DNA of 64,000 nt from Bolinopsis microptera (Eukaryota > Ctenophora > Tentaculata > Lobata > Bolinopsidae): contig NC_087078.1 in the NCBI RefSeq assembly GCF_026151205.1, positions 13,995,118 through 14,059,117 of the forward strand, given 5' to 3'. The notes beneath the pieces were generated by a model. That model did no database searches. It was not told the origin of the DNA and saw only the letters and a program-made list of their open reading frames with translations. The number at the start of each line of letters is the position of its first letter. Within the stretch, counting starts at the first letter, position 1. Shown here one piece after another: positions 1,456 through 41,577 of the stretch. A program made the position numbers and the translations under genes.

Positions 1456-1755
1456 GCTGGTCACATGATAACTGGTCACATGGTCACATGATAACTGGTC
1501 ACATGGTCACATGGTAACTGGTCACATGGTAACATGTCACATGGTAACTGGTCACATAATAACTGGTCACATGATAACTGGTCACATGATAACTGGTCAC
1601 ATGGTCACACGGTAACTAGTCACACGGTAACTGGTCACACGGTAACTGGTCACACGGTAACTAGTCACACGGTAACTGGTCACATGGTAACTGGTCACAC
1701 GGTAACTGGTCACACGGTAACTGGTCACATGATAACTGGTCACATGATAACTGTG
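1456..1755. repeat. 15-bp minisatellite
   Basis: About 20 copies of a 15-bp unit based on TAACTGGTCACATGG, with C/T variants (CACACGG, CACATGA) clustered in blocks, which suggests local unit duplication. Because 15 is a multiple of three the array reads as an open frame of repeated peptide; this is not evidence of coding. Confidence 0.9.
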
Positions 1756-1908
1756 ATTGATGACACATACCTTCCAGAAGTCTGAATCTTGTTATTCGTT
1801 GTTCCATTCCAGCTCTGAGTCAGTCCCCTAACTTCCTTCTGGAACTGGGACATCCTGAAGTTAAAGGAACGTTAGTTGGGAAAACACCGGATAATAAGTT
1901 TAAACATT

Positions 1909-4900
1909 TCAGAAATACCTAAACACGAAATGCGAGCTCGCAGTGTAGTTGTTAACTAAAAATAAAAACCTGAAATAGTAAAGGAAAGGGTTGCCAGCAC
2001 AGTTCAGATACTTCATAATAGTAGTAAGTGTACAGTAGTAGCTGATAGCGGCCGCCTTCATGCCTTCCAGCACTGAGTTCATTATACCCAGATATAGGAA
2101 AAAACCATCTGTAAGGGGGCGAGGGTTATACACAACTTATTGACAGCAGAAATTCTTGAGGAGCCATTATCGACGTTTGTGTAAAGACACTAAGTAAGGC
2201 CCAGAAATAGTAAAGACAAATGAATTGGAATTTGAAAATTCTTTTAGATTAATGCGAGTTGTTATTAAGCTATTTTAAAATTCAAATATCTCACTGAATA
2301 TGTTGAACCACTCAAGAGCATAGCAGAATACGAAGAACATCAACATAAGTATAACTGTGTTAATGGCTTTCTTCTGATGATCTGCTTTAGTTCTTTTCTG
2401 CAAACTCTTAACACTGATCTGGCTCCACCGATCTCGGGCCAGGTTCGGACTTCGGGTATTGTTTACGTTAACCTGGTTGTAGTTTACGTTAACCTGGTTG
2501 TAGTTTACGTTAACCTGGTTGTAGTTTACGTTAACCTGGTTGTAGTTTACGTTAACCTGGTTGTAGTTTACGTTAACCTGGTTGTAGTTTACGTTAACCT
2601 GGTTGTAGTTTACGTTAACCTGGCTGTAATTAATTACCTTTAAGTTTTAACGTGGTTGTAGTTAACGTTAACCTGGTTGTAGTTTACGTTAACCTGGTTG
2701 TAGTTTACGTTAACCTGGTTGTAGTTAATTACCTTTAAGTTTTAACGTGGTTGTAGTTTACGTTAACCTGGTTGTAGTTTACGTTAACCTGGTTGTAGTT
2801 TACGTTAACCTGGTTGTAGTTTACGTTAACCTGGTTGTAGTTTACGTTAACCTGGTTGTAGTTTACGTTAACCTGGTTGTAGTTTACGTTAACCTGGTTG
2901 TAGTTTACGTTAACCTGGCTGTAATTAATTACCTTTAAGTTTTAACGTGGTTTTAGTTTACGTTAACGTGGTTGTAGTTTACGTTAACCTGGTTGTAGTT
3001 TACGTTAACCTGGTTGTAGTTAATTACCTTTAAGTTTTAACCTGGTTGTAGTTTACGTTAACCTGGTTGTAGTTAATTACCTTTAAGTTTTAACGTGGTT
3101 GTAGTTTACGTTAACCTGGTTGTAGTTTACGTTAACCTGGTTGTAGTTTACGTTAACCTGGTTGTAGTTTACGTTAACCTGGTTGTAGTTTACGTTAACC
3201 TGGTTGTAGTTTACGTTAACCTGGTTGTAGTTTACGTTAACCTGGCTGTAATTAATTACCTTTAAGTTTTAACGTGGTTTTAGTTTACGTTAACGTGACT
3301 GTAGTTTACGTTAACCTGCTTGAATTTTTCCGGAACACTACATATAAGTTACTTTTCAAGTGCCAAAATAATTTGAATGGTCAACGCTAGACAATGAGAC
3401 GTCAAAGAGCTAAAGAAACATTAAAAATTTGAGGAAAATGTCAACTACTCAAAACTTTAAAACACGCCAACTATTTGACCTTTGGCTTTAGAAGTTTAGA
3501 CAATACCAGCTGTATCGTGGCCTGTGGGAAGTAACATTCTTATTTTACGCAAGGCAAACAGAAAACACCTTCGTCAATTTAACTGATTGTAACTGAATAT
3601 AACTAATCACCTCTTTAATTTTTCTACTAGTTCGCCTCAGAACGACTTTACCCTCCAAGTCCTCAGATGCAGTTCCTTGCCCCGTGTGTATCTCCGTGTA
3701 ACCAGCATCAACCTTGCTCATCTAGGAGAAAACATGGGATTAGATTAAACAAATCATCGAAACTTGAGCCCTAGTCGCGCAAAAAACATGCAGAGATATA
3801 ACGGAAAATTATTGAATTCTTAATTAGCGAACAGGAGATTGTACCTGGGTTGTAATAGGTTTCTCTGCCGCTTTCCTCTTGAAACTGAGAGATCTAAGTT
3901 CCTTAGTCAGGGCAACTGACCCTCTGAATGAGCGGTTCCTTTTCAAATCGGGCGGCTCAATCTGCTGTATTATACGTTTTGAGTTCTTGAATATCCTGTG
4001 TAGAATCACTATCACAGCCACACCTGAATGAGAAGGAGATGATAACGTTATACTATACATCATACAATACATTTTAGAGTATACAGTATACAGTATACAA
4101 TATATGTTCATGGTGTGATGATTTGTGTGGTAGTGTTATCACCCTATGTCGGGACAGTTCATAAATTAAGTAGTCAGATGTTCAATTAGTTTAGTTAGCC
4201 GTCAAGGAGCAGTTCAGCCTTTATGATAGTTTATATTGAACAATATCCACAACCCAGCCTATCAATCAGACCGACTTGGTGATGTATAGTAATTAAATCA
4301 AACGCAGTTGACTGAGCATATAATGTGAGATAAAGCCAAACAAGACAATATACCCAGAAAGAAAGCAGACCGCGGCTCAGCTGTGAAAATACTTTAATCA
4401 ATATTAATTTCTCATAAGGTCAGCTATTATAGCAAGGATTAATGCAGTCACTAAAATTTCAGTTTCCAAGAAGAACCTTACTTTTTCTTGGTAATTCCTT
4501 TACAGTAGATAAAATCTCTGAATATTCATATGAAAAACTTGAAATACCAAGACGTTTCTCCAGCTATCCACAACAAATCTCACTTAATCTGTGACGAGCC
4601 CAAGCTTAACTGTGAGAACAAGTTACCACAACAACATGATAATAAATAATAACAACAAATCATTTCACAAAACTCACAAAAGAAGACGATAAGGTAAGTA
4701 GGGACAACAATTGGCAGGATATTAACGAAGAAGTACGCTGTGGACACGTACGGAGGGTACGCCACCAGATCTGGGGTTCTCCCCGGTATCTCCCAGTAGT
4801 CCCCCGAGTAACTGTCGTTCTTCTGCACTAAGCTCACGTTCCTCTCCACGTATCTGTACAGACCTACATATTCTCCCACTTTGAAGATGTCAAACATGTC

Positions 4901-7900
4901 CTCTACTCGGTACGAGCACTGAAATCATGAGTAGAATATTATCTTTGTGTTATCCTGAGTATTATACACTATACAGGGTTCGTCATATAAAATTTGACTT
5001 TTTCGAAAAATTATTAATTATAAAAGTATAGAAAAGTAATATTTCATGTGGCACACCCTGTATATTATATACAGAATATAAATTATAGGTACTAGATAGT
5101 CAGTAGAAATATCTCGTTACTAATCGGTAATCCTAGTCTGTAATATTCTTTTCAACATGATAATAAAGAGTGAAAGGTACTTAAATTTAATATAATTTTA
5201 GTAATGCGGTGTAATCTTGAGTTAATAAAGTGCAGTTAATAAAATACAGTCCAGATAAAAAAGTCAGAGTTACCTGGGTAAACTGGGGGACATACTGATA
5301 GTTAATAACTTTAAAAGGTCTGTTCTCGCTGGTATCCATGACAGCGTCATCAGGTATAAGATAAGGGAAGATAGCCAATAGCAGGGCAGAGACCCAGCAC
5401 GTGATCACTAGTATCAGACAGTTCTTCACTGTCATGATAAGGTGCACGTGCAGCGCGTCGTGCACAGAGATAAACCGGTCAAAACTGAAAAGTTTCTCAT
5501 TTTAGGAGATCAACTGGTTGAAAGTATAGGATAAACCTCATGCCAAAGGATGAACACTAAACATTAAACAGGTCAACCTTTAAATATTCATAAAATTGGT
5601 TCTAAGTTTTTTCGATCAAAATTCACACAATATTCCATTTCTTTATAAGGAAATAATTGCTTAGTTATGGCCTTATAAAATTAAGTAGTAACCTAAACCT
5701 ACCAAATTAGGATTAGGGTAAACAAGGCAGCTTTACTTGACGTGTTCATCACGATTCCTGAAAATAATCATCTGTCAGTTCATCATGACATCATGTTTAG
5801 AGATCCTGTGGAAGTTAAGTTTTACGAGCAAGAAATTACATTTGCTTAGAGTTTAGAAGCATAAAAGTTTTCAAAGATCATGCCATCATCTTCAATAAAT
5901 GTGTTCAATTTTGTTTTTTAAAGTTCCAGTTTGCAAATAAAGAACTGCGTAATATATAGTGTTTAAATCTCCGATCAATATTTATGAGCGACGGCTAAAC
6001 ACAGTCAACATTTTTCCTGTTCGCTAATGCTTAATAAAATCACCGTCTCTATCCTGCATTTTGTATAGAGTCATAGAGCGGTTCCGATCAAATTCAGTTG
6101 GACTTTTGCCAGGATGTCAGGACTTATTTTGCTGTTTGGAACATTTAAACTAAATTTCTGGCAACTTTTAAAACGTTGGTTTTGTTGTCGCAGAAAATAT
6201 ATTTGTCAGAATCCTTTGTCATTATTCAAGGTTTCATACACTTGTTAAAACTACCAATTTGAAACTCAAATTGCAGCTTATTGTTTTAACATTTTATGAC
6301 GTTTTCCGCTGTAATGCTTCCCCGAATAAGTTATAACCAATAAAAAAATACCCTAAACGCATTGTGATGGAGACGGAAGTAGCAGGTGCAGATAAAATGG
6401 GTGTGGTCATCACACCTGAACTATGTGTGAAGTTCGACATGAGTGGGGAATATTTGTAGCAACTTATTAACCTGATAATTAGAAGTTAATCACGAAAATT
6501 ACACACCAGCCCGAAACCACTGAAATTAGCGTCGTGTTGTAAGACTTGTTCAATGTTCATGCACTGTCATTCCACTGTGCCTCCCCGCGTTAAAATTATT
6601 GACCACAGCAAGTTGGAAATTTAACTCGCTCAGAAGACATACGTCACAACGGGAGAAATATAGCTTCAACGTACATCAAAAGTATATTTATAGAGCTTCT
6701 TCAATATCATTATTCAGCAAATTGCTCTGCAATCATCAACTTTTTTACGAGATTCAGGGTCTTCATTGATATATAATGTTCACTTCTAAACGTCGCGTAC
6801 ACTCCTAGACCTTTGTCAACTAGCGTGTCTCATAGTGAATATTTAGCTGGATTCGCCAGACCCCATAGTCATAGTCTCTGAACTAGATATACTGCATCAA
6901 GTTTTCAACCAAGAATATGAAATTAAGGTAAAAATGGTATCTAAACAGTTAAGTACCTGAGAAAGTACAATAACTTTGTAAAGCTTCGTTGAAAGTACTG
7001 CCAGTAGAATTTCCCTCTAGTCCACTGATTGTCCTGTTCTCGTTCAGTAGACTGTAGACTGAGAACGGCATCACAAATATACCTGTAATAGTCCACAGTA
7101 AGAAACTAGTCCTGATTTATAAATTACTGAGCACATTTAGAAAATAGAGATTAGAAAATAGGGAACCTATCTGGTTTCACCACCAGACTTTAGAGGTTTG
7201 GTCACCAGTTCGAGTCAAACCAATTCGAGTCAATTCTCCTTGGCTCAACTCCAATGCAGAGCTTTGATATCCAGAGACCGTTTAGACCACCAAATTTGTC
7301 AAATATTGTCATTCATGTATTTTATGTCTTAATTTTTCAAAACCTGGTCAATATCAAAACATTCATAGTAAATCATATATCATCTTACAGCAATCGCGGA
7401 TTAAATCGAATATATATATTCAAATGTTCGAATATTTGCGCTTTAATGAAAGAATCTAATTCCGGAAAAAGCACTTCTTTTAAAAGTAAACTCTAATTTT
7501 ATCCACCAAATCGAAATCAATGTAATGAAAATGAGGCTATAACATTGACAATTCCAAACATACCGTTACAAAGGTCAGCAATAGCCATACTGGTAAAGAA
7601 GATAACGGATACAGTCTTTGAGAGAGGTATCCGAGTGAAAACAGTCAGGGCCATCATGTTACCTGGCAAATTGGGAGGGGTTGGTCAGTTACAGTTATTT
7701 GGGGGTAAACTGTAAAACATGGCCGTAAACAGCATTCACAGTACTAGTTGTATATTGGATTGCCATTAACTTTAGCCCTTTTTGATGACCCTTACAACTT
7801 TTATTGCGAAACCTATTCTTTTCGCTGTGATCAGGTGCGATGAATTGTAGATTTTCCGGCGATCCAGAACCTTATTTCATGTCTGCAAAAAGGGCAGAAT

Positions 7901-10254
7901 TCAAGCCCAGGATTTTCTAAACGTTACAGAAGGTCAAGGTTGATCGAACAAGATTACGTATCTCTAGGTGCTATTTCCGGGCACTCATGGGGGCTTACAG
8001 TGAGAATAACTCGATAATGACACTTTAAACCGTTATCTGTGTCGCTGATTACAGATTGAACACTCCACAAAGGATGACGCTAATGGTAAATTAGCGACTT
8101 ATCCTAATCCTGTTATTAGGTTTTATCACGTCACTAGTTGACGTTCCCTTCTCTAACAATGTAAAATATATTACTGCTTTATTGTTAGCGAGTCTACGTG
8201 TAAATTATAAGTAGTAATTCTCCTACTACTATTTTCGCTAAAGTGAGCTTTTTAACCTACACTAGTCGCTAAAGTGAGCATGCTTACCTACAATAGTCGC
8301 TAAAGTGAGCATTCTTACCTACAATAGTCGCTAAAGTGAGCATTCTTACCTACAATAGTCGCTAAAGTGAGCATGCTTACCTACAATAGTCGCTAAAGTG
8401 AGCATTCTTACCTATAATAGTCGCTAAAGTGAGCATGCTTACCTACAATAGTCGCTAAAATGAGCATTCTTACCTACAATAGTCGCTAAAGTGAGCATTC
8501 TTACCTACAATAGTCGCTAAAGTGAGCATTTTTACCTACAATAGTCGCTAAAGTGAAAATTCTTACCTACAATAGTCGCTAAAGTGAGCATGCTTACCTA
8601 CAATAGTCGCTAAAGTGAGCATTCTTACCTACAATAGTCGCTAAAGTGAGAACGATAAAAAATACTGCCAGAATTATCTCCGCAGCTTCGTGGTATGATT
8701 TCTCATCTGAAATTAGAAACATTAAACTAAATATAATAATCAATATTGAATATCAACATGCATAATAAAATGTAGTGTGTGGTAGTTTGTGTGGTAGTTT
8801 GTGTGGTAGTTTGTGTGGTAGTTTGTGTGGTAGTTTGTGTGGTAGTTTGTGTGGTAGTTTTTGTGGTAGTTTGTGCGGTAGTTTGTGTGGTAGTTTGTGT
8901 GGTAGTTTGTAGCTACACTAACAGGGAGCCACCGACTAGAATCCCAACAATAGGAGCTGTATATTGAGATGAAGTCATACCAAAACCAACATCACTAGCG
9001 GGTTATGATCTGTTTGTATGACCATGTAAGGCATCAAACCTCCAGCCAAGTTACTGATGTGTTACTCAGCTAGCAATAAAGTCACTGTCAAGTCTCTGTG
9101 TGATGGGCAACTAAATGTGCGTACAAATGTGCGTACAAATGTGCGTACAAATGTGCGTACAAATGTGCGTACAAATATGCGTACAAATGTGCGTACAAAT
9201 GTGCGTACAAATGTGCGTACAAATGTGCGTACACATTTGCGTACACTGACTGCGTACGGGGGGGGGGGGGGGGGGGTACCAATGGCATAGAATGGAGAAA
9301 AATGGCATAAAATTCATCAAATGGCATAGAAATTTCATGGCATAAATGGAAATTTTGTTGGCCAATTCTCCATTATGCCATTTATGCCATTGGTACCCCC
9401 CCCCCCCCCCCCCCCTGCGTACAAATGAGCTGTTACTTTAAAAGTTTAAAAGTTGAAAGTTTTCATTTTAGAAAAGTCTGGACGCGTGTGATTAAATGAA
9501 ATTAAAACTGATAAAATCCAGCCTTTCTCTTAAGTTAATCGAGAAAAAGATTATTCATAACATATAACTATACCTAAAAAGTAAAAAGGCTAGACTCAAT
9601 TAAAAAGTGGTATTACCTGTAAGATGTGTATAGGAATCAGTGTAGAAAGTACTGCTGGAGGTGTACCACGAGCTTGTTGGGTAGGTTCCCGTCGTTGTAC
9701 CATAATCTCCACTCTTGTTTAACGTACTATCATCTGCGAACACTGTCTCCCCTTCTGTCTGCACCTGTCATAACAAGAGGGGTTAGTTGTGGTGTTATTT
9801 GACAGTTGTACACAAGTTAACAATCTCATGATAATGCAAGATTGCACGTTTCATGTACAACTTTAGCTGTGCAATTTCAACTGCCAAAATGACTATACAT
9901 AATACAACATCATCATTCATCAACCATTTGGGGGACAAACTTTCAACTACTCTAGTGTCCAGATCAAATTATGCTTATCAGTAATTAGGTAGGTTTTCAG
10001 TTTCAAACGGAGAAAATGTTTTGAATTGATAAAATCTCAAGGAACTACACCCCAGTATCGTGGTAGAATAACTGAACCTGAACAGGGTTGAAGGAGGCAG
10101 ACTGAGTGACCATAGTACTGAGAGTGGTAGCAGCTTCAGTCATAGCACTGGAGAGCATCTCTGATACCCAGCTCACCGTGACTACATCAGGGTGGTTAGT
10201 CGTCATGTCCGGGTTGTTTGTTGTGATCTTGTTCTGGGGGGTGGTGGTAACCAT
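1909..10254 (-). CDS. class A (rhodopsin-like) GPCR, 12 exons, 575 aa
   Basis: Seven-pass plasma-membrane receptor; ligand unknown. Joined exons (5' to 3'): 10254-10078, 9764-9617, 8706-8629, 7662-7564, 7082-6957, 5757-5703, 5484-5274, 4918-4678, 4023-3845, 3721-3611, 2397-2295, 2108-1909. All borders have AG/GT sites with matching phases, and the total is divisible by three. Residues 1-109 are a Ser/Thr-rich extracellular tail without a visible signal peptide. Hallmarks fall at the expected spacing: TM1 GN (N136), TM2 MAIAD (D164), C206 at the start of TM3, a DRF motif (R231, exactly 25 residues after C206), C299 in the second extracellular loop, and TM7 NPFLY (549-553). TM6 (about 486-508) lacks the usual proline of the CWxP motif. 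The third intracellular loop is long and basic. Least certain are exon 1, its weak donor GTTCAG, and the short C-tail, which might splice on to a further exon. Several introns contain minisatellites. Confidence 0.85.
2453..3325. repeat. 21-bp minisatellite with higher-order structure
   Basis: Roughly 35 copies of a 21-bp unit containing GTTAACCTGGTTGTAG lie in the intron between the TM6 exon and the preceding exon of the GPCR gene. Blocks of 2 to 9 units are separated by a spacer ending TAATTACCTTTAAGTTTTAA. One long block plus spacer (about 2750-2950) recurs almost unchanged at about 3090-3290. The unit contains the palindrome GTTAAC. The open frames of a repeated seven-residue peptide are by-products of unit length. 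Confidence 0.92.
4974..5060. mobile_element. 87-bp TA-flanked MITE
   Basis: It starts CAGGGTTCGTCA and ends TGGCACACCCTG, forming imperfect terminal inverted repeats, and is bordered by TA on both sides. TA targets and CAGGGTG-type ends are typical of Tc1/mariner-derived MITEs. It lies in the GPCR intron between the TM4 and TM5 exons. No coding capacity. Confidence 0.6.
8233..8640 (-). repeat. 31-bp minisatellite repeating an exon end and its 5' splice donor
   Basis: Fourteen copies of a 31-bp unit. Read on the gene strand, the first copy is the last 13+ coding bases of the GPCR TM1 exon followed by the donor, TTGTAG/GTAAGAA (exon end at 8629). Most later copies keep the same exon-like bases and a near-consensus donor (GTAAGA or GTAAGC); the copy furthest downstream is degraded (GTTAA). 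Thirty-one is not a multiple of three, so use of the second donor would shift the frame, and readthrough meets a stop in the second unit. Only the first donor gives the conserved TM1 GN joint. Confidence 0.9.
8776..8912. repeat. 12-bp minisatellite
   Basis: About 11 copies of GTGGTAGTTTGT, with one or two point variants, in the GPCR intron before the TM1 exon. Confidence 0.9.
9115..9257. repeat. 12-bp minisatellite
   Basis: About 10 copies of GTGCGTACAAAT followed by diverged copies. The array is interrupted at 9258 by a poly-G-ended inverted-repeat element and resumes briefly after 9415 with TGCGTACAAATG. Confidence 0.9.
9258..9415. mobile_element. 158-bp poly-G/poly-C-ended inverted-repeat element
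   Basis: The element begins with a G run of about 19 bases followed by TACCAATGGCATA and ends with TATGCCATTGGTA plus a C run of about 20 bases. The 13-base inner part of the terminal inverted repeat is perfect. The interior is made of more ATGGCATA-like words. The bases TGCGTAC occur on both sides and would be a 7-bp target duplication, but the site is itself a repeat containing that word, so the duplication is not proven. It lies in the second intron of the GPCR gene. Confidence 0.7.
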
Positions 10255-10312: not shown

Positions 10313-11040
10313 TTGACAGAAATAGAGCGATGTGACTGGTGGGAGGTGCTGGTTTGAGTCTAGAAGATTCTTGGTCTTATCACTGAAACACCTGGTTTGA
10401 ATGACCCTACTGTTCGGTTATTTCTGAGCAACAGTATCTAGTTTCTGATAACACCGGAAGTCTTCAAAACACAAGGAATAGCCTCAAAACACAAAGATTC
10501 TATCAAAATTGCAGATAAATCTCAGATCAAGTCTCTCACAATATCCACAAGAGTATTTTCTCTTTTCAGCTGATTGTCGACACGCTATGACATTTTCCGG
10601 CGTGACTTGCTAAGAAGGTTGGTGTTATATTTCAGAAGTTAAGTAAAACCCTGACATTATCATCAGTACACAGCGTTAATTAGAGAATATAATATCCTAC
10701 AATGTCCGTGATTTCATACAAAATCAGGGAATTTCACAGCCAATCGTTGAAGGCCTGAGTGCAGCCCTACAATGATATGGGTCACGTAACCACCAGAGGG
10801 TAGAGGAATCAAAAAAATCTGGATAATATCGCCAGATGACAGCTAATAATTCAGGAACAAACAAGAGGGCAAATTAGATTAAGCTATAATGACGAAACAG
10901 CCAATAGGACAGTATTTTTTATGAAAAATATGCTGAGTGCATACCGCGGGTAGGCGATGAAAAGTAGCACATACTGCTCCTAATGGCGAGAGCTAGTTAA
11001 CTACAGGGTGTACCGGCTGCACCGGTAATATACCCTCAGA
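10313..11040. other. intergenic, no gene recognised
   Basis: Unique AT-rich sequence upstream of the GPCR gene. No exon or structured element was recognised. Confidence 0.5.
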
Positions 11041-11043
11041 CAG

Positions 11044-11625
11044 AGCTAGGTTGTACACAAATCTAGGTAGCACACAAAGCTAGGTAGCACACAAAGCTAG
11101 GTAGCACACAAAGCTAGGTAGCACACAAAGCTAGGTAGCACACAAAGCTAGGTAGCACACGAAGCTAGGTAGCACACGAAGCTAGGTAGCACACAAAGCT
11201 AGGTAGCACACGAAGCTAGGTAGCACACAAAGCTAGGTAGCACACAAAGCTAGGTAGCACACAAAGCTAGGTAGCACACAAAGCTAGGTAGCACACAAAG
11301 CTAGGTAGCACACAAAGCTAGGTAGCACACAAAGCTAGGTAGCACACAAAGCTAGGTAGCACACAAAGCTAGGTAGCACACAAAGCTAGGTAGCACACAA
11401 AGCTAGGTAGCACACAAAGCTAGGTAGCACACAAAGCTAGGTAGCACACGAAGCTAGGTAGCACACGAAGCTAGGTAGCACACAAAGCTAGGTAGCACAC
11501 AAAGCTAGGTAGCACACAAAGCTAGGTAGCACACAAAGCTAGGTAGCACACAAAGCTAGGTAGCACACAAAGCTAGGTAGCACACAAAGCTAGGTAGCAC
11601 ACAAAGCTAGGTAGCACACAAAACT
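11044..11625. repeat. 17-bp minisatellite
   Basis: About 34 copies of ACACAAAGCTAGGTAGC, with an A-to-G variant (CACGAAG) in a few clustered units. It is highly homogeneous, which suggests recent expansion. Confidence 0.95.
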
Positions 11626-12393
11626 GAGCAGCACTGAAAGGCAAGCAGCAGGTTTAGCACAGTTAAGCAAAATATTATTTTTGTGACCGATAAGTATTCA
11701 GCAACGCAAACCGTATTGGTAACGGTTACAAGTTGGCACTGTAGATACAACATAATATTATTATTAGAAATTAGAAATAAGATATTGGATCTAGTTACAA
11801 GAACAAGGCAGCGTACGAGTGTACGGCAGAGAGTATCAAGATATACCAAATATCCGCTAACTTAGCCGGCATGTCAAACACTCAAACTACGTCACCCAGC
11901 TACAACGTCACAAGGGGTCTAGTAAGTAGTAGGAAGTTGGGTCTAGCAGTGTTATCTAGCAGTGTCTAGTTGGCCTGAAGATGGCCCAGGTGTACCCTGG
12001 AGGAGTACGTCTATAACACGGTCTAAATGTTAGCACCGAATGTTCGACACAGTAAATCCAGCTGTTGTTGGACATACTGCTGTTGAGTAGCAAGGAAGCC
12101 ATGAATAAAATCAGCCTGACAAGAACAATATTTAAGCACAAGTTTTAACAACAAATACAGATTTTTAAAGCTCTCTTTTATCGTATGAATGTGTGCGCGA
12201 GTGAAGGAAATATTTAATGCAGCGTAAATTAAAATATTTAGTTTTCACATGGACAACGCTGACTATGACTTTATGACTAAACTAAAGAAGCTCTGATCTG
12301 AAAACAAAACAAAACAATCATTAGCATTTAGCGGATGCATCACTCTGAAGTGATCAGGACCGTTCTAAAAAGGCACACACAAAACGGGATCAG
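11626..12393. other. intergenic, no gene recognised
   Basis: Non-repetitive sequence between two minisatellites. Open frames here are short and show no known domain. Confidence 0.5.
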
Positions 12394-12782
12394 TGTGCGA
12401 ACACAGAAATAACCCCGTATTAAGGAAGGAGTGGATATGTTGTGAACACAGAAATAACCCAGTATTAAGGAAGGAGTGTACATGTTGTGAACACAGAAAT
12501 AACCCCGTATTAAGGAAGGAGTGTACATGTTGTGAACACAGAAATAACCCCTTATTAAGGAAGGAGTGTACATGTTGTGAACACAGAAATAACCCCGTAT
12601 TAAGGAAGGAGTGTACATGTTGTGAACACAGAAATAACCCCGTATTAAGGAAGGAGTGTACATGTTGTGAACACAGAAATAACACAGTATTAAGGAAGGA
12701 GTGTACATGTTGTGAACACAGAAATAACCCCGTATTAAGGAAGGAGTGTACATGTTGTGAACACAGAAATAACACAGAAATA
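12394..12782. repeat. 45-bp minisatellite
   Basis: About eight and a half copies of a 45-bp unit containing GAACACAGAAATAACCCC and AAGGAAGGAGTGTACATG. Units differ by only a few substitutions. Since 45 is divisible by three, several frames on both strands stay open for more than 130 codons, but no start context, splice site or domain supports translation. Confidence 0.92.
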
Positions 12783-13450
12783 AGCCAGGAAGCTGGGAGT
12801 GTTGCTAAGAAGGTTATCGAGTATTATGGTTCAGGAAGCAGTGGGGGTGTGAAGAGAGCAGAAAGAAGTGTTTATACTGGATGAAGGAAGGGAGGGAGGG
12901 TGATTATAAGAGCTCTAATTACAACACTGCGTCATACTACTCATACCCTGCTGCACGGAGGGATTCCTCTGAAGTGTCAACTACCAGGCTAGGGATTCCT
13001 GAGAATCCTCTCCAGTGAGCTGCCCTTCACGTTAGTGGACCTGACAGGTGCCAAAATAACTGTTTCAGCCAGAGTTAGGATCTTTATTTATTTTGGTTTA
13101 TTTTTACCTGCACCTTTGTATTAAAGTGGCCCGTAAGTGATGAGGCTAATTTAATTATTTCCAAAGCAGATTTCCCGGTACGGAGACTAAGGAAATATTC
13201 CTCCAGGATGGAGAGATGTTTGTTTGCAGTTTGAGCCTTACAAACTTTGTGATTCAGAACAATCCACCTCACAACATAGTGGGTTTTACCTTGTCCTTCA
13301 ATACCAGCGACATCTAATTCAAACATTGCTAGATTTTCAACAGGCTAATAATAGACTTGACGACACAGCCCGATTTTCAAGGACAATATCAAGGAACAGT
13401 AATAATATAACAGCCGTTTAGAAAATTGAGCAAAACGCTCGACTTGTGCT

Positions 13451-13505
13451 CATCAAATGAGCTATCAACAAATCAAAGGGCTGTATTCTTGTCACGTGTC
13501 CCAAA
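13451..13505 (+). repeat. dispersed CCAAT/CACGTG repeat, copy 2
   Basis: Diverged copy: GAGCTATCAACAAATCAAAG then TGTATTCTTGTCACGTGTCC. It aligns with the copies at 14743 and 15376 across the spacer between the two motifs. Confidence 0.5.
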
Positions 13506-13904
13506 TAAATATTCATATCAGAGAGCTGTGTAAGTACCTGGTGAACATTTAATTCTCTTGACTTGAAAACCTGTGATACTGCAACTGCAAGCTGTTTGTG
13601 AATATCCTCTAACAAAGTGCTTAACGCAGAATACAAGGAGAATGTTGTAACCTAAGGGAGGACAAAAGAACAACTCTCCCCCAATAATCAAAAATATGTT
13701 ATTGTTAAGGGAAGCGAATTAGATTTAAGAATAAACGGACAGAGTGATGTGTACTCTAGCCAGGTGTCATCTAGTGCGGAGCAATTATTTATGAAGGAGC
13801 AATTAGTTCGCATACCATTATCCAGCTTATCCGGCCTGTGACATCAACCAATGATATAACGAAAAAGCAGTAATCGATAGCAACACCGCTGTATGCAAAT
13901 GCAA

Positions 13905-14080
13905 TAGCAACACGACAGTAACCAGTAGCAACACGACAGTTACCAATAGCAACACGACAGTCACCAATAGCAACACGACAGTAACCAAAGCAACACAACA
14001 GTAACCAATTAATTAGCAACGTGACAGTAACCAATAGCAGCACGACAGTAACCAATAGCAACACGGCGGTAACTTATAAG
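13905..14080. repeat. about 21-bp minisatellite
   Basis: About eight imperfect copies of AGCAACACGACAGTAACCAA. Copies are more diverged than in the neighbouring arrays, suggesting an older array. Confidence 0.85.
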
Positions 14081-14742
14081 AACACGAAAGTACTAAAACT
14101 AATTTAAGGACTGCAATCAAAAACACGACAGTATGCCACTGAAAACATATCATTCACTGAACTAATCACAATCAAACGAGTGGCACTGAACTGAAATGGA
14201 ACTAAAACAAATGAGCAGAAGTTTTTCACGACAGATAGAAGAGCAGCAGATGTAGGACGTGTGAACGTCATGTTAGTGACAAAGGGCGGAGTTAAATCTA
14301 GCTATCACTCGGGTGATACGTAGCACCGGTCAGCCGTTAACGGGAAACATTAGATCACACACCTGCAGTAACAAGGGAGTAGCTAACAAATCACACACTG
14401 CTCGCTACAAAATGTGAAAATAGCTTTATGCTATCAGCCGTAACTCTGGGATCCTGGGCTGTGGCAAATTGGGACTATATCATTAGAGCACATGTAATGG
14501 CTACATATGGAACACGAGGTAACGAGGTCTATACATGGCTTAAAGTGCACTTCTGACGTTATAATAGTCTAGTGTAGATACCCAAGATAGTAACTCACAG
14601 ATAAGATTAGATTACCTTCTAAATGTGATTACGAAAATAATCCTCTGTTTTGTAATACAGATCAGAGTTTAGGATCATGATCCGGCCCGTATCGATGTCA
14701 GCGAGACAGCGGCATAAATTTATTGTAAACAGCCTCGCCCAA

Positions 14743-23100: not shown

Positions 23101-25364
23101 TATTGTTTTGGCAACTATTTCTATAACAATTCAACACTACAAATACTTTTCAGCGACAGTTGGTGCCTGGCTACGATTTTTCACATCTGAGTACCACGCC
23201 TCATAGTAATGTGATAACTTTATTATCTACTGTAACGCCCTTTAAATATATAATACAGTTTATAAAGCGAGTTTCCGTATCGATGACTACTAATGATGTT
23301 GTATTTTTATTTGCTGAACGTTAACGGAAAATAACTCGCTGATAGGATGTAATAGCTGGATCAATATTGTACGGATGCTTCCTCATTAAACTTTAGTGGA
23401 GATTGAGGGAATTGAGAATGAAAAACAGGGAACCCTCGCAGCGTGCGCCGTACAGCTCAATATGTAATCAAATTACAAGAATCATAGTTTACAAACAAAT
23501 TAATTGTTCATAAGCCCATTTACGTGCGGTATAGTTAACTCTAACCGCGAAGGCAAATGGTAAAATGTGTGATTCGAGATGTTAAAAACGTACCCAGTTA
23601 CTAAGAGATGGGTCGATGAGCTCCTGTACTCTGGGAGGTTCGAACTCAACATTCTCTACGAATGAGTCCCTTCCTTCACCGTCACTGTCATCTTCATCGT
23701 CTTCCTCAAACCTGCACGTGCCAATAATTATAACATATAAGCTGATACGCTGTGCATAGAAATAACAATATACATCACGTGCAAGATAATGATACTGATT
23801 TATCGCTCCACTTCACAAATCAGTAAGGTTGGGATAGGCAAAAAGAAGAAATTAATATCATTGTTGAGGGAACACTGACTTGAAATAGTCCACAGGAGAA
23901 ATGAGAGTTCCGGCACTAATTCTGGCAATCTGTGCTCTGAGATAGTTGATTTCGGTTCCTGGGAAAGGAGGGTAACTGATTACAGTCTCCTCCAAATTAC
24001 CGGTGAAGAACTTCTTGATTTGTCGAGCACACACGATCTGGGCTGGAGTTACTGGAGGCAGTTTCGTCCATTCTGTTCCAGGCTCATTGCATACAAAGTA
24101 TGTCTTTTTGTTGCAACCAGTGCCGGTCTCTTCCTTGGGGATTACTGGAGGTGGTTTGTAATCTGGTGTTGGCAGATTGTCTTCGTCTCCCTCTTTAGGT
24201 TCTTCTGCTTCCTCATCTCTTGGCTCCTCTCCTTCCTCCTCTTCTCCTTCTTGTTCCTCTTCCCCTCCCTCTCTGTATTCCACCTGACATATCACAATTT
24301 TGATTAAGCAAATTATCTACTGGAGATATGACCGATTTTGTTATTTTTAAACTAATATACGGCGACACGTCAGATGCGGGCAGAGTTTCCAAGTTTTGCA
24401 CGCCTAATATAATAAAAACGATCTGGGATGCCATATAAGTAAAACAATTACATTGTCATTGTAGGAAACTTTTATCGTGCGTGGAGTAACCGCGGCGAAA
24501 TTCTTGTTTAACTAATATATGGCAAAAATTGGTTTGAAAGATAAGAGTGAGACACTGAGATGGAGATCTTAGATGTGATAATAACGTTTACCTCAGCCAC
24601 AATATAGTTTTTCTCAGTTCCAAGAATCTTTCCCCAGAATCTAACAGACTGAAGAGTGTGAGTGTCCACCAAGTTCTTGAGTGCGAGGAATATTCTGAAA
24701 GTTTCCTCTCTGCCGAGACCAAGACCAGCCTGTTCGAAGTAGTGCGCTGTATCCATCAGGTCTGGGAGTGGCATTTCCACTTCATCCTCTGGTTCTGGTT
24801 CAGCATCCTCACTGGGCTTTTCGAAGAGCTTGTTTTGGACGTTTGCTAATTCAACTTCAAGTGATGCCGGTCGCACATCCTGCAACTTGAAAATTAGATT
24901 TAGGAACCAGCTAAATAGTCAAACATTTTCGGATGCTTATCAGGACTTATCACTTAACCAAAACACAAATTTTGCGAATTTATGATATTGGTTATGACAA
25001 TGACATATTGGAATACGAATGAATAAATAATAGATACCCAAAGTTTATACTAAAAGATAAAAATTGTGCGGTCGCAGTCCCCTATCAATTTCAAAACCAA
25101 AAAAATTAACAATAGAGTTACGGGTGGTACATCGTTAAAAAATCAGTAAAGTAGACTAACCGAAGAAGGGTCGCAGGGAGGAGCAAACTTGTTGGTTTTA
25201 ACTTCTTTTGACAGAGCTTCTAATAAATCGACTGAGTTAGGGGTTCTGTTTTCCAATATTTTGTGCATCACGGAGCACATATGATCATAAAGATTCAGCT
25301 TGGAGTCCGGACTCTCCTGCTGCAGGAATGCCTTCGCATTCTGTATCATCGTCTCCGACGCCAT
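20150..25364 (-). CDS. RSPH4A: radial spoke head protein 4A/6A homolog, 8 exons, 511 aa
   Basis: Structural protein of the radial spoke head in motile cilia, where spokes pass signals from the central pair to the dynein arms. Joined exons: 25364-25161, 24879-24592, 24283-23880, 23711-23594, 21232-21146, 20966-20738, 20617-20535, 20272-20150; phases match and the total is divisible by three. Family blocks seen: [12 protein letters not shown] and [10 protein letters not shown] (exon 2), an acidic stretch after VEYREG (about 170-200), [15 protein letters not shown] (about 218), [66 protein letters not shown], and an acidic C-tail after VTEVPDPT. The start is the first Met of a well-conserved N-terminus ([13 protein letters not shown]). 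It is a tandem paralog of the gene at 26239-28267 but has four additional introns; the largest (21233-23593) is 2.4 kb. Vertebrates have RSPH4A and RSPH6A; I cannot say which it equals. Confidence 0.92.
21239..21615. repeat. short direct duplications in an RSPH intron
   Basis: Two adjacent copies of about 30 bp containing ACTTGTTACAAAGTGGTAAT lie at 21246-21308. A second pair, based on TTCGTTACAATACCGGTTAT with CCCTACTAA and GCGCTGCTT, lies at about 21531-21612. Both pairs are in intron 4. Confidence 0.7.
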
Positions 25365-26238
25365 CCTACCTGAATTTGTTAGCAGTTAGCCATCATTTAT
25401 CATTTCTAGTTTCAAGTTGAAAAATTTCGTTGATCAAATAATTTTAACAATTCTGTATCAAGCTGAAAATATGAGATGGAACAATGAAAGATACTCAGAG
25501 AATTTACAATGGGGAATGTTTAGAAAAACAATAAATAAAATGATGTTATGTACACAAAATAACAATGAGTCTGATGACAAAGTCAAATACCCTGTGTAAT
25601 ATGAATAGCCCTCAACAAAAATATTGTCAGAAAACGCCTTTGTCAAATTTTAGAAATATATAAAACTCTGTCCCCAGAAGTTGTTAATCTAGAAAAGTTT
25701 CTCCTAACGAAAATATAATACATTATCTACATATTCACTGCATTTGTTTGTCAAAAACTGAATAACACATCCCAAAATTTATCGAACCTAGAATTACTAG
25801 AATTACGGCAATGCCACTTATATAATTTACGAAATATTGGCAATAATTGTGCGTCAGCTGCAGTCGATAAGGGGAAATGTTAAGATACCACCCAAAAATG
25901 CCAAACCAGAAAGTTAAGGGTTTAATAGAAGATCACAGTGATGTGTGATGTATACTGAACAATGAACATGCTACATGCAATAAGCTATCGGAATCAGCGA
26001 ACGAATACAAACGCTCATTTTATCAGTGTTTTGCAGGAGACGCATATAGTTACGGTTGCTATGGAAATCTGCTAATTTCGCAGCGCGCGATTGCAGAAAA
26101 GCCGCACTTTTATCACAGTTTAAGCTTCGCGCGTAACAAAAAACGTATATTTTTCAGTGAACCGTTTGAAAGTGGCGCGCTCAACTGCTTATCCACAAAG
26201 CGTATTATAAACGGGAAATTGTGGATAGGGGTTTGGAT
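25365..26238. other. intergenic between the two RSPH paralogs
   Basis: 874 bp that must hold the 3' UTR of the upstream paralog and the promoter of the downstream one. A partial X-box is listed separately; nothing else was recognised. Confidence 0.5.
26055..26068. promoter_or_regulatory. partial X-box (RFX) candidate
   Basis: GTTGCTATGGAAAT resembles the RFX palindrome GTTGCCATGGCAAC with one good half-site (AGCAAC on the minus strand) and a diverged second half. It lies about 690 bp upstream of the RSPH start codon at 25364. RFX control would suit a ciliary gene, but the match is weak. Confidence 0.2.
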
Positions 26239-28267
26239 TTAATCGTCATCCTCTTCATCATCTTCCATTTCTGCTTCTTCAGCTTCACGTTCGAGTTGCT
26301 CTTGCTGCATCGCAAGAAGTGCTTGTTCGTCTGCTACAGTTGGATCTGGGACTTCAGTTACCTGTGATAATTTTGCGTCAAATAAACCGAATAAACACAC
26401 AAATTTAGTATTGATTGAACCAAGAAGATACCTACAAACTTTAAACGAATTAAATGAAAATCACATTCATGAGAGATATAACTATACACTTAATATTTAC
26501 CTCTAAGTCAGTCGTGTATTCCTCAAATACTGGTGGTGGTGGGGGTGGACTGTAATTCTCCGAACTGTACTTATGTCCGAACCCAATATAAATATTCTCA
26601 AACTTCTTATCAAATCCAAAGGTACAAGCGCCAGGCCAAGTATTGGATTTAAGAACAGCTACAGAGTATGCTCGTATGAGGTCTGAAGATCGGGCAGCGG
26701 ACCAGGCAGGAAAGCCGTCCACAAGACTATCATGGTTTATCGTGTTTAGTAAGGGCGGACCTTCTTCTTTTTGAGGCTCATCTGGATCTTCATTTTCTTC
26801 TTCTTCTTCTTCCTGTGGAGAATTTATTTTTAAATAACAGATTTGGAAAAAATGGCATATAGACAATCAATGAAAAAAATATTCTTTAAAATTAAATGTT
26901 TCTCAAATGGTATAATTGTCTTATTTCATTGTTTAAAGAATTGATAGGGGTAAAATCGTAAATTTATATCTCTTAAAAACCTCATCGAATTCCTCGTTAT
27001 CAGCCTTAGTGATGGGATTGATCCACTTGTACCTGCCCTGAGGCAGAATGTGATGCATGTGATGTACCCAGTTATTGAGGGAAGGATCTACCAGTTCATA
27101 CACTGGTAACGGTTCAAACTCAACATTCAATATGAATGAGTCACGACCCTCTCCGTCACTGTCTTCATCGTCATCTTCATCAAATCTGAGGAGTAAACAA
27201 ACAGTATTATATACTTATAAATGTAGTCAAATTGACTGTGAATTGTGACCAAAGATCACTTGCTGTGTAAGAATATAACACTGATCTGAGTGGATAACTG
27301 TTGTCAAAAGATCATAAAATCATGCACAGGAAAAAATTCCTAATGTATAAATACATAATTCACAAGTAAGTTAGCAGCTGTTTTCTTACTTGTAATAGTC
27401 ATAAGGCTTTATATGAGTACCAGCGCTGATCCTTGCAATCTGGGCACGAAGATAGTTTATCTCCAGGCCTGGGAAAGGAGGATAACTGATGACAGGTGCG
27501 TTGAGATCCCCCGTGAAGAACTTCTTGATCTGTCTTGCGCACACAATCTCTGCTGGTTCCACTGGTGGCAGTTTTTTCCACTCTGTACCCGGTTCATTGC
27601 ACACGAAGTAAGTTTTCTTGTTACAACCCGTTCCGTTCTCTTCTCTTGGTATTTTAGGAGGAGGTTTGTAATCGGCTTTAGGAAGATCCTCCTCTTCGCT
27701 CTTCTCCTCCTCCTCCTCTTCTTCTTGAACCTTCTCTTCCACCTCCTCCTCCTCCACATCCTCATCTTCTTCTCCCTCTCTATACTCCACCTCAGCTACT
27801 ATATAGTTCTTTACAGTTCCAAATATCTTTCCCCAGAACCTCACATCCCGTAATGTATGGGTATCCACAAGATTCTTCAGAGCTAGGAAAATCTTGAAAG
27901 TTTCCTCCCGTCCCAGACCCACGCCAGCCTGCTCGAAATAATAAGATATGTCCATCAGATCTGGAAGTGGCATATCCACTTCATCTTCAGGCTCAGGGTC
28001 AGCGTCCTCGATATTCGTCTTCTCAAACAGACTGGATTGAAGTTTTGCCACGAACACTTCCCGCTCATCGATCTCCCGCGTGGTTCCCTCAGCTTCGTCC
28101 TTTTTGTCAGCAGACAAATCTTCGAAAATGTCCACAGCATTTTGAGTCCTCCCTTCAAGCACACTATGGAGAATGGAGCAGAAGTGATCGTAGACATTAC
28201 GTTTAGTGTCCGGGCTTTCTTTCTTGAGGAAGGATTTAGCCTCGTCAATAATTGCTTGAGACGCCAT
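26239..28267 (-). CDS. RSPH4A: radial spoke head protein 4A/6A homolog, 4 exons, 505 aa
   Basis: Second radial-spoke-head paralog. Exons: 28267-27390, 27185-26981, 26812-26501, 26361-26239; phases 2, 0, 0 match and the total is 506 codons with the stop. The first exon alone encodes residues 1-292, including [28 protein letters not shown] with a long Glu-rich insert (about 170-200), [28 protein letters not shown] and YLRAQIARI. Then follow [66 protein letters not shown] and an acidic tail. Its three introns are at the same places and phases as three of the seven introns of the downstream paralog, so four introns differ. It carries an extra charged segment ([15 protein letters not shown], about residues 55-70) missing from the other copy. 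Its start lies about 500 bp from the EFCAB2 stop. Confidence 0.93.
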
Positions 28268-28755
28268 CTCTATCTAGTGAATCAAGCTAATTAATATTCA
28301 GGATAGGTATAATTATTAAATATCTACAATCAATAATTCGGGGCCGATTTTGAAAACGAATTAAAAAATACCATTCGTAATAAATTGACATTTGGAACGT
28401 TTAGCATAAATAAACGGCCAGATTTTAACTGGATCTTTTAACTTGTTTAACTTACCAATTATTATAAATTCCACTGGTCAGATATATAATTGTTATGATG
28501 TAAACAAAACCGTACTGATTATGAATTGTGATAAGATAAAACATTATATTCAAATAACATCATTGTTTATACAAACACTCTGAATTTATTTCTTAAATAA
28601 TGGTTGGCTTCAAACAAACACTGATCAGTCAATTTCAGAGAAACCAATTAAATTGTAAGCACGATCGCGACCAAAACCAATGCATCTTCATTTGCCACAT
28701 AATAATCTCTGTATACTGAATGCTTTGAACTGGCGCTCCAAAGTTTTAATCCCAC

Positions 28756-28761
28756 TTTATT
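28756..28761 (-). terminator. AATAAA poly(A) signal
   Basis: On the gene strand AATAAA starts two bases after the EFCAB2 stop codon (28766-28764). If used, the 3' UTR would be only a few tens of bases long. It is the nearest such signal to the stop. Confidence 0.45.
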
Positions 28762-28763
28762 GT

Positions 28764-31700
28764 CTAACTCTCCTCTAACAACATAAGAGGAGCAAAGTCT
28801 TTATAATAGATAAGCTGTTTATCTTGGTCAATAGCTGCTGATAACATTTCATCCATTTCTTCTGTGGTAAATGCTTCTCCTTCTGTTGTCATGTAACGTT
28901 GTAACTCTTCAGGTGTCAGGTAACCTTTCAGCTCTTTATCTAGTACTTCAAACGCTTTTATTATCCTGAGAAATGTTATTTTAGTTTTCTCCTTTCAGAA
29001 AAATATTTCTCGATGATATGATTTAAACCTCAATTGAAGATAAAAACATCATATCATGGACAACCTGAAATAATCAAATTAGAGGCGCAAAAATGTATAG
29101 TTTCCGAAATGAATGAGTTTAGTAATAAGCAACATAAGAGTAAGAAAAAAGCTATATTTTCTTCTTTCTTACTCAGCAAAGTAATAAGCTTCATAAACTT
29201 CCTATTTATTAAACACGTATATATATATAGTATATACACGTATATATAGTATATATATATATATATATATAGTATATACACGTACCTATCCTCAGGTTCA
29301 GGTCGGTATCTGCTCTTATCCATGAGAACACGTGTCATCATAGGTTCGAACCGCTCGTAACGTACATAACCAGTAGGTTCATCTTCCTCTACCTCGGCTA
29401 TCATGTCATTTAACTCACCCTCCGTTGGGAAACAGCCTAGTGACCTACGGAATGTGTGTTGTTAGATAAGTAAACTGATTAGTTGGATTTTTTCCATCAA
29501 TTTTTTTTCTATAAAAGTATGAGATGGTTAGAAGTGGTAGGAATTGAGAATGGGTATAGTAGGTAGGTAGGTAGGTTTTTCGTGGTGTCAACTGTCACAA
29601 AGGAAAACATGTGCCCCCTTAATTTCCCACCCGAACAACTTATGTTTAAACTTGTAAAGGCGGGGTGCAACACCTAACCCCGCCAATCCCGCTAATCCCA
29701 CCAAATCCCGCCAAATCCCGCGTAATCCTGCGTAATCCCGCGTCATTCCGCAAGTGCGGGGTTAGACGGAAATTGGCGGGGTTATGTACAACACCTAACC
29801 CCGCCAATCCCGCTAATCACGCCAAATCCCGCTTATTCCGCCAAATCCCGCATAATCCCGCCAAATCCCGCGTAATCCCGCCAAATACCGCCAAATCCCG
29901 CCTAATTCCGCAAGTGCGGGGTTAGACGGAAATTGGCGGGGTTATGTGTTGCACCCCGCCTTTGTAAACAACCATTCCTTCACATGGCTTTTGTTCTTCA
30001 AACGTTTAATATCACCACACAGGCTACGGTGTCCGTTCATTTAACTTTTTAGATTTGAATAATTGACAATGGCAACCCCTCCATTTTGTGCTCCATAGCG
30101 CCCCAAGAATGATGAATAAAGAACCATTATTTGATATTTTGACCAACATCAAACGATCGTTAATTGTAATTTTAAATTTTAAAAGGCAATGCCTACGGTT
30201 GATGGAAATTTAGCCTCCGCTAAACGGCGCAATTCTTGTTAACTGTTGAGTCTTGAATGCAAACAACAGTCTTCAGTGTCAGTTTAGGACGACACAGGCG
30301 GCTGGTGGTTAGTACCATCAATTTCAGATCGGTTTCAGAAAGTTGGACCCCTTCCCTAACTCTGAGTTTCGTAAACTTTCTATCAATAACTCTAGCAGAG
30401 CAACACTAAGATAATCATGCCGTATGGGTACGATAATGTTTGTTATAATAGAATTTAATAAGACCTTAGTCTGAAAGCTATTCTACCAGTTCTTTCTTTA
30501 CTTAATAATTAAATATCAAATTAGAAAAATAAACGAGGTGTTTCGTGTCGGTCAATTATTTTGAGTTTTGATCGAGCTGTATATCCAGAGCATGGATTCT
30601 GCTTATTTGGTTCACAGGTTTTTCCTAGACTTTTTGTTCGAACTTTAGCTTTCTGTACAAGATTTTTTGTTATCTTAGAATTTATTCCGCATTTATATTA
30701 TTCCCACTCTCGACTCCTCGCTAGCAGTCCGGTTAATTTAGTACCTCTAGGTAACTTCTCATTTAATCATGAGGACTTTTTAAAGAACATATTCTCACCC
30801 TCTAAGATTTTCACCGCTTCGTTCATTTTATAGATTTATTCTTTTTATATTTTTACTACACTTACTAACACGTGCATATTACGAAGGAGTAGATGCCTCC
30901 GCAGGCATTTTAGAACGTGTTATATTTTATCACTTCATGCACGGCTGCCATTCTGCTTATTTGGTTCACAGGTTTTTCCTAGACTTTTTGTTCGAACTTT
31001 AGCTTTCTGTACAAGATTTTTTGTTATCTTAGAATTTATTCCGCATTTATATTATTCCCACTCTCGACTCCTCGCTAGCAGTCCGGTTAATTTAGTACCT
31101 CTAGGTAACTTCTCATTTAATCATGAGGACTTTTTAAAGAACATCTCACCCTCTCAGAAAACTCCGTTTGAAGATATTTACTATTATTATCTATGTCATA
31201 AATTTTCCTTGTGATTGAATTCTGTCACTTTTTAACTGTTTCTAGTAGTAGTATTTGTTATTTTCGGCCGATTTCTGCACTTTTTCACTGGGTCATCTTC
31301 ATATTTTCTGGGATGGAGACGACGCATATCAGCATTTAAGGAAGAGTTTGCTTGACTGACTTACTTCATTAGACACTTCTGGTCAAGGACAACATGACAC
31401 CTAAAACTTTGAACATAACACGAGGAAACATGGACAAAACTGAACAAGAACCACATTCGAAGACTGAAACATCTGAATGACTCTGCAACCCAGGAATCCA
31501 CTACTCAGTTATCATCGCTAAATGATCAGTTTGGTATCGACGTTACATACTTTATTATTTTTTTTAAAAAGAAAAAGAAGCTGATTTTAGTTTTTTTTTT
31601 TTTTTTTTGTTTTTTTTTTTTTCTTCCTTCAAAACATTCCAGTACATTGTGCAGAAAGTTGGAGATAAAGCCGTAGTACGTACATGTAGCATACTACTGG

Positions 31701-40420: not shown

Positions 40421-41030
40421 CAGGCCGAGCGCCGCCCAGTTGATATAATTCTATATTGAATTTGAAAATCGTGTATATTTCTATGTAACCATATGTTTAT
40501 TGTTTATGCAACCTGACACGGATTTGTGCAAAATAGTAATACTAACTCAAAATAATAATACAATGCTATCAATTTGTCCCTAGCGGGATGCGTACATGGT
40601 GAAATTAACAATGTACTTGAACATTTCAGCACCGCGCGCCAACAATTGTTTAATTAAGATGATTGCGCAAAATAACTTTGCGCAGGCAGACACGAGGGGC
40701 GATAACTAGACTGGGGGCGAGGGCACGTACGCACGCACGCTCGCACGGTCGCAAGCTACCATATACAAAAAAAACCTCGATCGCTAACCCTTGTCCTTGA
40801 CTCTTTTGTGCCTTCGGCACTTAGAGTCATGGATCGGGAAAAAATTTTACTAAGGACCTCATTCCTAAATTCTTCAACTTCTGTCACTCATGCAAGGTTA
40901 GTCTTCAGTGCACCTCTCCTAAAGTGTCAAGGAGTGGCCTGTGGCTGATTGCTTTGCATGTTAAGTCCTTTTAGTAACTATTTTAATAACAGTGCCTTAC
41001 ATTCTTTGACATGCATTTATGAAATTTTTT

Positions 41031-41127
41031 AACGGGTGATACTCGTAAAATATCTGTACCATATATTCAATATACCGTCGACGAGTCCAACTCGGCGCGC
41101 GTCCTGGTAGGTTGTAAACCTACAAGC
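41031..41127. repeat. two-hairpin dispersed repeat, copy 1
   Basis: About 95 bp from ACGGGTGATACTCGTAAAAT to GTAGGTTGTAAACCTAC. It contains a small hairpin GAGTCCAACTC, then GGCGCGCGTCCTG, then a 7-bp-stem hairpin GTAGGTT/AACCTAC. Copies are at 60197 and 60658 in the same orientation, conserved above all over the hairpin part. Confidence 0.8.
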
Positions 41128-41149
41128 TGAAATAAGTTGACATCGTTGT

Positions 41150-41440
41150 AAAGTATGACCCGCCGCACACGAGTGCGCGGCTCCCCTGTACCGTATAAAC
41201 TCTACAGTGAAACGACCGTGGGGGTCACGACGTGATACAAGTAAATATCTATGCATATATTCAATATTTAAAGATTTGACAATATCACCTATAAATATTA
41301 CTGGGCCACACTCTGCCTGTCATTTTTGTATCACGTGGTGACCCCCACTGTCGCTTCACTATATAACTCTAGGCCCCTGTAGAGTCTCTACGATACAGGG
41401 GAGCCGCGCACTCGTGCGCGGCGGGTCATACAACGTGTGA
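41150..41440. repeat. foldback inverted repeat
   Basis: The left arm (about 41153-41240: GTATGACCCGCCGCACACGA ... GGGGGTCACGACGTGATA) is matched by an inverted right arm (about 41330-41434), which ends CGTGCGCGGCGGGTCATAC. The loop of about 90 bp includes ACTGGGCCACACTCTGCCTG, a word related to repeats at 40412, 53353 and 60417. GC-rich arms in AT-rich DNA. Confidence 0.75.
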
Positions 41441-41577
41441 CAAGTCATTCCGCTATTTTTTCAATAGGTGTGTTTAGGAACACAAAAATCATTTTAATTT
41501 CCATTAAATGTTTAAAATATTACATTTTTACATATAACAAACACATTTTGATTGTGCACACGTCACGGAAAATTTGC

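Follow-up and report, generated by a model that had tools for sequence, protein, structure and literature searches.

A row of splice donors at a receptor exon of the ctenophore Bolinopsis microptera, probably one of a recurrent class of minisatellites grown over exon junctions

Which of 13 near-identical splice donors ends the TM1 exon of a ctenophore receptor gene, and how did such a row come to stand there? The gene lies on the minus strand of a 64,000-nucleotide stretch of the Bolinopsis microptera genome (the window; NC_087078.1, positions 13,995,118 to 14,059,117), where a 31-bp minisatellite (8235..8650, minus strand) runs from the end of the exon into the following intron. We regard it as probable that a minisatellite has grown here over an exon junction, as one member of a recurrent class, and that it is tolerated through exon definition as a nearly neutral passenger.

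The host gene was modelled with 13 exons and 611 codons (1771..10254, minus strand; start and 3' end putative). The predicted protein matches Pfam 7tm_1 (E 4.3e-20), and its best relatives in a sequence search were class A receptors of solved structure. The TM1 exon of this rhodopsin-type GPCR (8629..8706, minus strand) lies between introns of 910 and 966 nt. The longer of these, the TM1-TM2 intron (7663..8628, minus strand), carries the array in its 5' part and is followed by the TM2 exon (7564..7662, minus strand), with the acceptor that completes the conserved GN joint.

TRF scored the minisatellite at 13.4 copies with 94% matches, and on the minus strand 13 complete units were read from 8650 to 8248, all with a GT donor, followed at the intronic edge by a partial copy that has decayed. 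The unit, CTCACTTTAGCGACTATTGTAG|GTAAGAATG, consists of 22 bases of exon end (coding LTLATIVG) and 9 bases of intron start. In unit 0 (8620..8650, minus strand) these 22 bases are the last of the TM1 exon, and the productive donor, TAG|GTAAGA, follows position 8629. The initial annotation had thus rightly described a 31-bp unit straddling the exon end and about a dozen extra donors, there being 12 beyond the first; the array itself is real, and the span of 8233..8706 assigned to it takes in the TM1 exon (8706-8629) as well. The donors of units 0 to 12 read GTAAGA (seven), GTAAGC (four), GTAAAA (one) and GTTAAA (one), and AG|GT is present in all 13 full units. The best pairing of the unit with U1 (-9.4 kcal/mol) was equalled by none of 100 dinucleotide shuffles of the unit. 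Eleven of the 13 array donors reach this value, which none of the gene model's 13 donors exceeds, and 12 pair at -6.7 kcal/mol or better. For the U1 5' end behind all pairing energies we assumed the general animal sequence.

Splicing from the first donor, which ends the exon at 8629, onto the acceptor at 7662 yields ...LTLATIVG|NMMALTVF..., with the conserved GN joint, and from each of the 12 further donors translation of the test fragment ends at one and the same stop after 37 residues. This agrees with the earlier claim that only the first donor gives the conserved joint. The array does not qualify as a coding repeat, given that stops recur in its frames. An introner or other mobile intron element was likewise ruled out, since a whole-genome search with a 26-base part of the unit, allowing up to three mismatches, found 13 places, all of them inside the TM1 array. 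What the locus does have are tandem units across an exon-intron border with a donor in each, the arrangement of a splice-donor minisatellite of the IFI6 kind.

The same gene carries a second array, on the acceptor side of the TM6 exon (2461..3322, minus strand), composed of 21-bp units with CAG|GTTAACGTAA. Near the exon it reads in frame (VNVNYNQ), and variant units interrupt the array. The TM6 exon (2295..2472, minus strand) probably starts in the last copy of the array, in a loop without homology.

A second receptor, on C13 (L007/L055; 7tm_1, E 8.4e-25), has an intron at the same codon and in the same phase (G|GT AAC). That intron is 196 nt long and has one ordinary donor and no array, from which it follows that the TM1-TM2 intron most likely predates the array, as judged from this one paralogue. 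Elsewhere in the C13 receptor, the TM3-TM4 intron (997 nt) is filled by a 31-bp donor array from the SIDR exon, with 30 copies of the donor motif, and retaining one more unit leads to a stop. The G before GT is missing in 18 of these 30 copies, and copies without it pair with U1 at -3.2 kcal/mol, compared with -9.8 kcal/mol at the exon-edge donor. The TM5 exon of this receptor has a 41-bp donor array with at least 99 exact copies of GTAAGTTTACT, reaching the end of the examined piece, and the TM2 donor marks the start of a 16-bp array. The C13 receptor also has a 51-bp array of 18 copies (L055, 259-1188) directly ahead of its TM1 exon; judged by eye, this array appears to read in frame as extracellular repeats (MSNMSQFTNCTNFAADN) and may be coding.

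Junction arrays were also found beyond receptor genes. Fourteen random 10-kb regions yielded 27 filtered TRF arrays, three of which straddle acceptors of homology-confirmed genes (UBE2W-, COMMD- and SLD5-like) and one of which is a probable donor array, so that in this sample acceptor arrays outnumber donor arrays. Given that the other 23 are unclassified, three of 27 is a lower bound. The acceptor array of the UBE2W-like gene (L050) has seven CAG and three CAT copies; the exon that starts from its last acceptor begins VMF and aligns to UBE2W (E 8.7e-24), and one further unit would add 15 in-frame residues. The COMMD-like gene (L053; Pfam COMM_HN, E 3.5e-6) has a 29-copy acceptor array in which 27 acceptors are CAG and two TAG. 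Because the last of them is TAG, position and not motif should decide which one is used. A sequence search for solved relatives of the COMMD-like protein gave none of note (best E 1). In the SLD5-like gene (L060), 58 acceptor copies fill a 3.4-kb intron, the first of them 23 nt from the upstream exon. When the exons are joined at the last acceptor, the alignment with SLD5 of known structure (E 7.5e-23) runs ungapped through the joint; including one extra unit leads to a stop (TDYVRTH*). AG|GT is absent both from this array (CAG|CG) and from the probable donor array of L059 (ACA|GT); the L059 exon had no Pfam family above the cut-off (zf-H2C2_2, E 0.03), which is why we grade that array as probable only. 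An array in L023 starting beside a weak receptor match was left uncounted because the exon edge could not be discerned, and among the arrays at window 10900-14260, inspected for exon edges, none was clear enough to count.

We suggest that the TM1 array originated as a short tandem duplication across the exon-intron border that grew into a minisatellite; given that the duplication would have spanned the border, a copy of the donor came to lie in every unit. The array would then be one case of a recurrent class, with units that lie across donor or acceptor junctions and that may take up a large part or the whole of an intron. If the exon is recognised as a unit, its acceptor should pair with the nearest donor in donor arrays, which is the first, and its donor with the nearest acceptor in acceptor arrays, which is the last. 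The arrays, their positions at junctions, the homology across the outermost joints and the stops that follow from inner use in the TM1, SLD5-like and C13 TM3 arrays are directly observed, and in both kinds of array they point to the outermost copy as the one used. Protein homology is the basis for this conclusion, and some leaky splicing at inner sites is possible. A rule by which the first transcribed site wins fits donor arrays and not acceptor arrays, whereas exon definition fits both. From this agreement we infer that the outermost site is the one used in RNA and that exon definition operates in this ctenophore.

Minigene work provides a precedent. In constructs whose flanking introns measured 365 nt, splicing went exclusively to the upstream of two identical donors (PMC9225289). 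The introns around the TM1 exon, at 910 and 966 nt, both exceed the length of about 250 nt above which exon definition is expected. For acceptors, the accessible text describes a preference for the upstream 3' splice site that was reduced by long introns on both sides and not shown to be reversed (PMC9225289), and the support is therefore weaker than for donors. The same source describes a long upstream intron combined with a short downstream one as behaving like exon definition (PMC9225289). The COMMD-like exon (1450 nt upstream, 132 nt downstream, with only the former above about 250 nt) and the TM6 exon (1138 nt upstream, 186 nt downstream) are of this kind. The initial annotation held that the spliceosome must choose the first of many near-identical donors; the first is indeed the only productive one, and, given long introns and the minigene precedent (PMC9225289), the choice poses no special puzzle. 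Inner copies would most likely be passed over by exon definition, and we infer from this that the arrays are nearly neutral passengers of a high birth rate of minisatellites. Coding constraint would keep the copy at the exon edge, and inner copies would be free to drift and to vary in number.

Minisatellites are dense in this genome: in the first 80 kb of the random regions, 11 arrays of 100 bp or longer take up 7.1% of the bases. In 20,000 trials that placed the five minisatellites of the gene randomly in its introns, with at most 30 nt of exon covered, 75% touched one splice site or more and 33% touched two or more, two being the observed number. Unrestricted placement, with arrays allowed over exons, touched at least two sites in 98.6% of trials, and was set aside because it ignores coding constraint. 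For the random regions, an assumed, unmeasured density of 100-200 junctions in 140 kb and seeds of 45 bp give roughly 3-6% of arrays straddling a junction by chance, or 0.9-1.7 of 27. The three confirmed and one probable cases may lie above this range, and do not do so clearly.

A special link between minisatellites and donors was rejected by a shuffle test of 45 arrays (27 from the random regions and 18 from the window), in which donor-like motifs exceeded dinucleotide shuffles at p<0.1 in five arrays only, with a mean p of 0.60. Genome-wide pattern counts gave a less uniform picture. Triple AGGTAAG had 2961 matches compared with 70 for the pattern read backwards (overlapping matches, not arrays), and a dinucleotide-preserving permutation of it had 1205 compared with 75. 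Triple CAGGTAAGT had 377 matches and none backwards, of which the 100 listed fall in nine arrays; multiplying array density by chance by hand, about eight arrays of the CAGGTAAGT type are expected genome-wide. These counts may leave room for some enrichment of donor arrays, and we claim none.

Several other explanations of the TM1 array have to be weighed against a tolerated passenger. The AG|GT in each unit invites the idea that splicing heals itself: inner donors would be used, and the retained units (GTAAGAATG...TTGTAG, in multiples of 31 nt) would be removed later as small introns or recursively, giving the same mRNA whichever donor was chosen. Because AG|GT lies within the unit, a run of one or more complete units starts with GT and ends with AG, and on paper its removal (GTAAG...TAG) keeps the frame. 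Also on paper, and apart from self-healing, the 12-nt piece in each unit (CTCACTTTAG|CGACTATTGTAG|GTAAGA) is a putative in-frame microexon adding ATIV. The unit holds a putative branch-like word, CTCAC, between GTAAG and TAG, and from four units (124 nt) upwards a removed stretch would be similar in size to the shortest introns of the gene model (115 and 123 nt). A model of AGGT tandem duplication and a test in ATP2A2, both described in PMC4974935, point the same way. However, the SLD5-like acceptor array and the probable L059 donor array lack AG|GT, so that re-splicing at AG|GT is rejected as a general answer, and for the TM1 array we consider it unlikely. The same AG|GT units, together with tandem-repeat introns reported in fission yeast (PMC3629103), could also be taken to mean that an AGGT-duplication array created the TM1-TM2 intron. 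Given that the C13 receptor, the one paralogue compared, has this intron at the same codon and phase with no array, an origin of the intron from the duplication is extremely improbable.

A functional array would be one whose donors bind U1 snRNP and block early polyadenylation, or whose copy number tunes output through unproductive splicing. The strong U1 pairing of 12 of the 13 donors (11 of them at the maximum) and the premature stop behind all 12 inner donors are what such a role would lead one to expect, and a C. elegans minisatellite is described as enriched near multiple splicing decisions (PMC4039745), which makes an effect of such arrays on splicing conceivable in principle. The initial annotation had raised copy number and U1 recruitment, and neither found support: the C13 receptor manages the same intron with a single ordinary donor, the random sample contains three confirmed arrays on the acceptor side and one probable array on the donor side, and donor motifs are not enriched in minisatellites overall. 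Recruitment of U1 in the manner of donors is not open to acceptor arrays, the C13 receptor has no array in the corresponding intron, and most copies of the C13 TM3 array lack the G before GT; a U1 or copy-number role is therefore quite unlikely. Finally, copy numbers or whole arrays could stem from errors of long-read assembly. The published B. microptera assembly was built from PacBio reads using wtdbg, with subsequent polishing (PMC10232365), and window 41000-53000 appears by eye homopolymer-rich and odd, perhaps a poorly polished piece of assembly. Against this, the units carry scattered, partly shared substitutions, and on several chromosomes the unit of each array matches its own exon edge, which leaves an artefact very unlikely.

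Donor minisatellites and repeats at exon boundaries are already known from human genes. The repeat unit of human IFI6 is reportedly 12 bp long. As in the TM1 array, a tandem repeat stands at the end of an exon there, and provides several donors, of which ones in downstream repeat units are used (PMC4526556); two downstream units are in use there and give isoforms, in contrast to the TM1 array, where any inner donor alone would lead to a stop. Closer in unit length are the minisatellites of about 30 bp in human segmental-duplication genes, some of them at exon-intron boundaries and with 27 intron modifications, which average about four copies and are linked with new introns and alternative transcripts (PMC2812944). 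The ctenophore arrays differ from these in having 13 to at least 99 copies, in lying on donor and acceptor sides and, at TM1, in involving an older intron. Introns gained by AGGT tandem duplication, as in the Rogers model and ATP2A1 (PMC4974935) or the repeat introns of the fission yeast genes SPOG_01682 and SOCG_00815, with units given as AGGC (PMC3629103), share with the TM1 array an AG|GT unit and, in principle, the removability of whole units. Unlike them, the TM1 array lengthens an intron that was already there, and some junction arrays found here lack AG|GT. CeRep25B of C. elegans is likewise an intronic minisatellite associated with splicing choices (PMC4039745); as far as described there, it is not made up of exon-intron junction copies, and it is one family spread over many genes, in contrast to the gene-specific units of B. 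microptera. The minigenes shared identical donors and long flanking introns with the TM1 locus, and had two sites in human-cell-type constructs (PMC9225289), compared with 13 to about 100 natural copies here, known from sequence alone. Among the top-ranked literature matches, with subscription papers mostly outside them, we found no report of junction arrays in a ctenophore or at such copy number.

With tens of near-identical sites in a row and a conserved protein that fits just the outermost, such arrays amount to natural experiments in how splice sites are chosen. For donor arrays, a rule of the first transcribed site and exon definition predict the same outcome; it takes acceptor arrays, in which the needed copy is the last, to tell the two apart. 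Outermost use in both kinds, if it holds, would speak for the cross-exon proximity rule in a lineage that branched early among animals, and at copy numbers beyond the two of the minigenes. Gene predictors may misplace exon ends in genomes with junction arrays. A bolder reading, which we find rather unlikely, is that junction minisatellites are a standing feature on both sides of exons, in the order of thousands (estimated by hand from three to four of 27), that pairing with the nearest site across the exon goes back to the base of animals, and that some arrays serve as sinks for unproductive splicing, tunable through copy number.

Other features were observed in the window and the random regions. 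About 550 bp upstream of the TM1 exon, at about 9258-9414, runs of poly-G and poly-C with inverted-repeat ends (GTACCAATGGCATA ... TATGCCATTGGTAC; by eye) possibly represent a small mobile element. Minisatellites in L023 (1645-3141), in L052 (3270-3889) and at window 1457-1753 contain words like GTTACCATGGTAAC or close variants, which resemble the RFX X-box. Elsewhere in this genome, an ionotropic glutamate receptor has ML032222a, a Mnemiopsis protein, as its best relative of solved structure. On the minus strand at window 23585-29461, two similar acidic gene stretches are followed by an EF-hand protein; we take the former to resemble radial-spoke-head proteins and the latter to be like DRC8/EFCAB2. 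Judged by eye, the plus strand at 33269-34359 has long open frames that are receptor-gene-like with few or no introns, and the minus strand at 56201-59711 has a 985-codon open frame with a zinc-finger-like start, possibly a retroelement.
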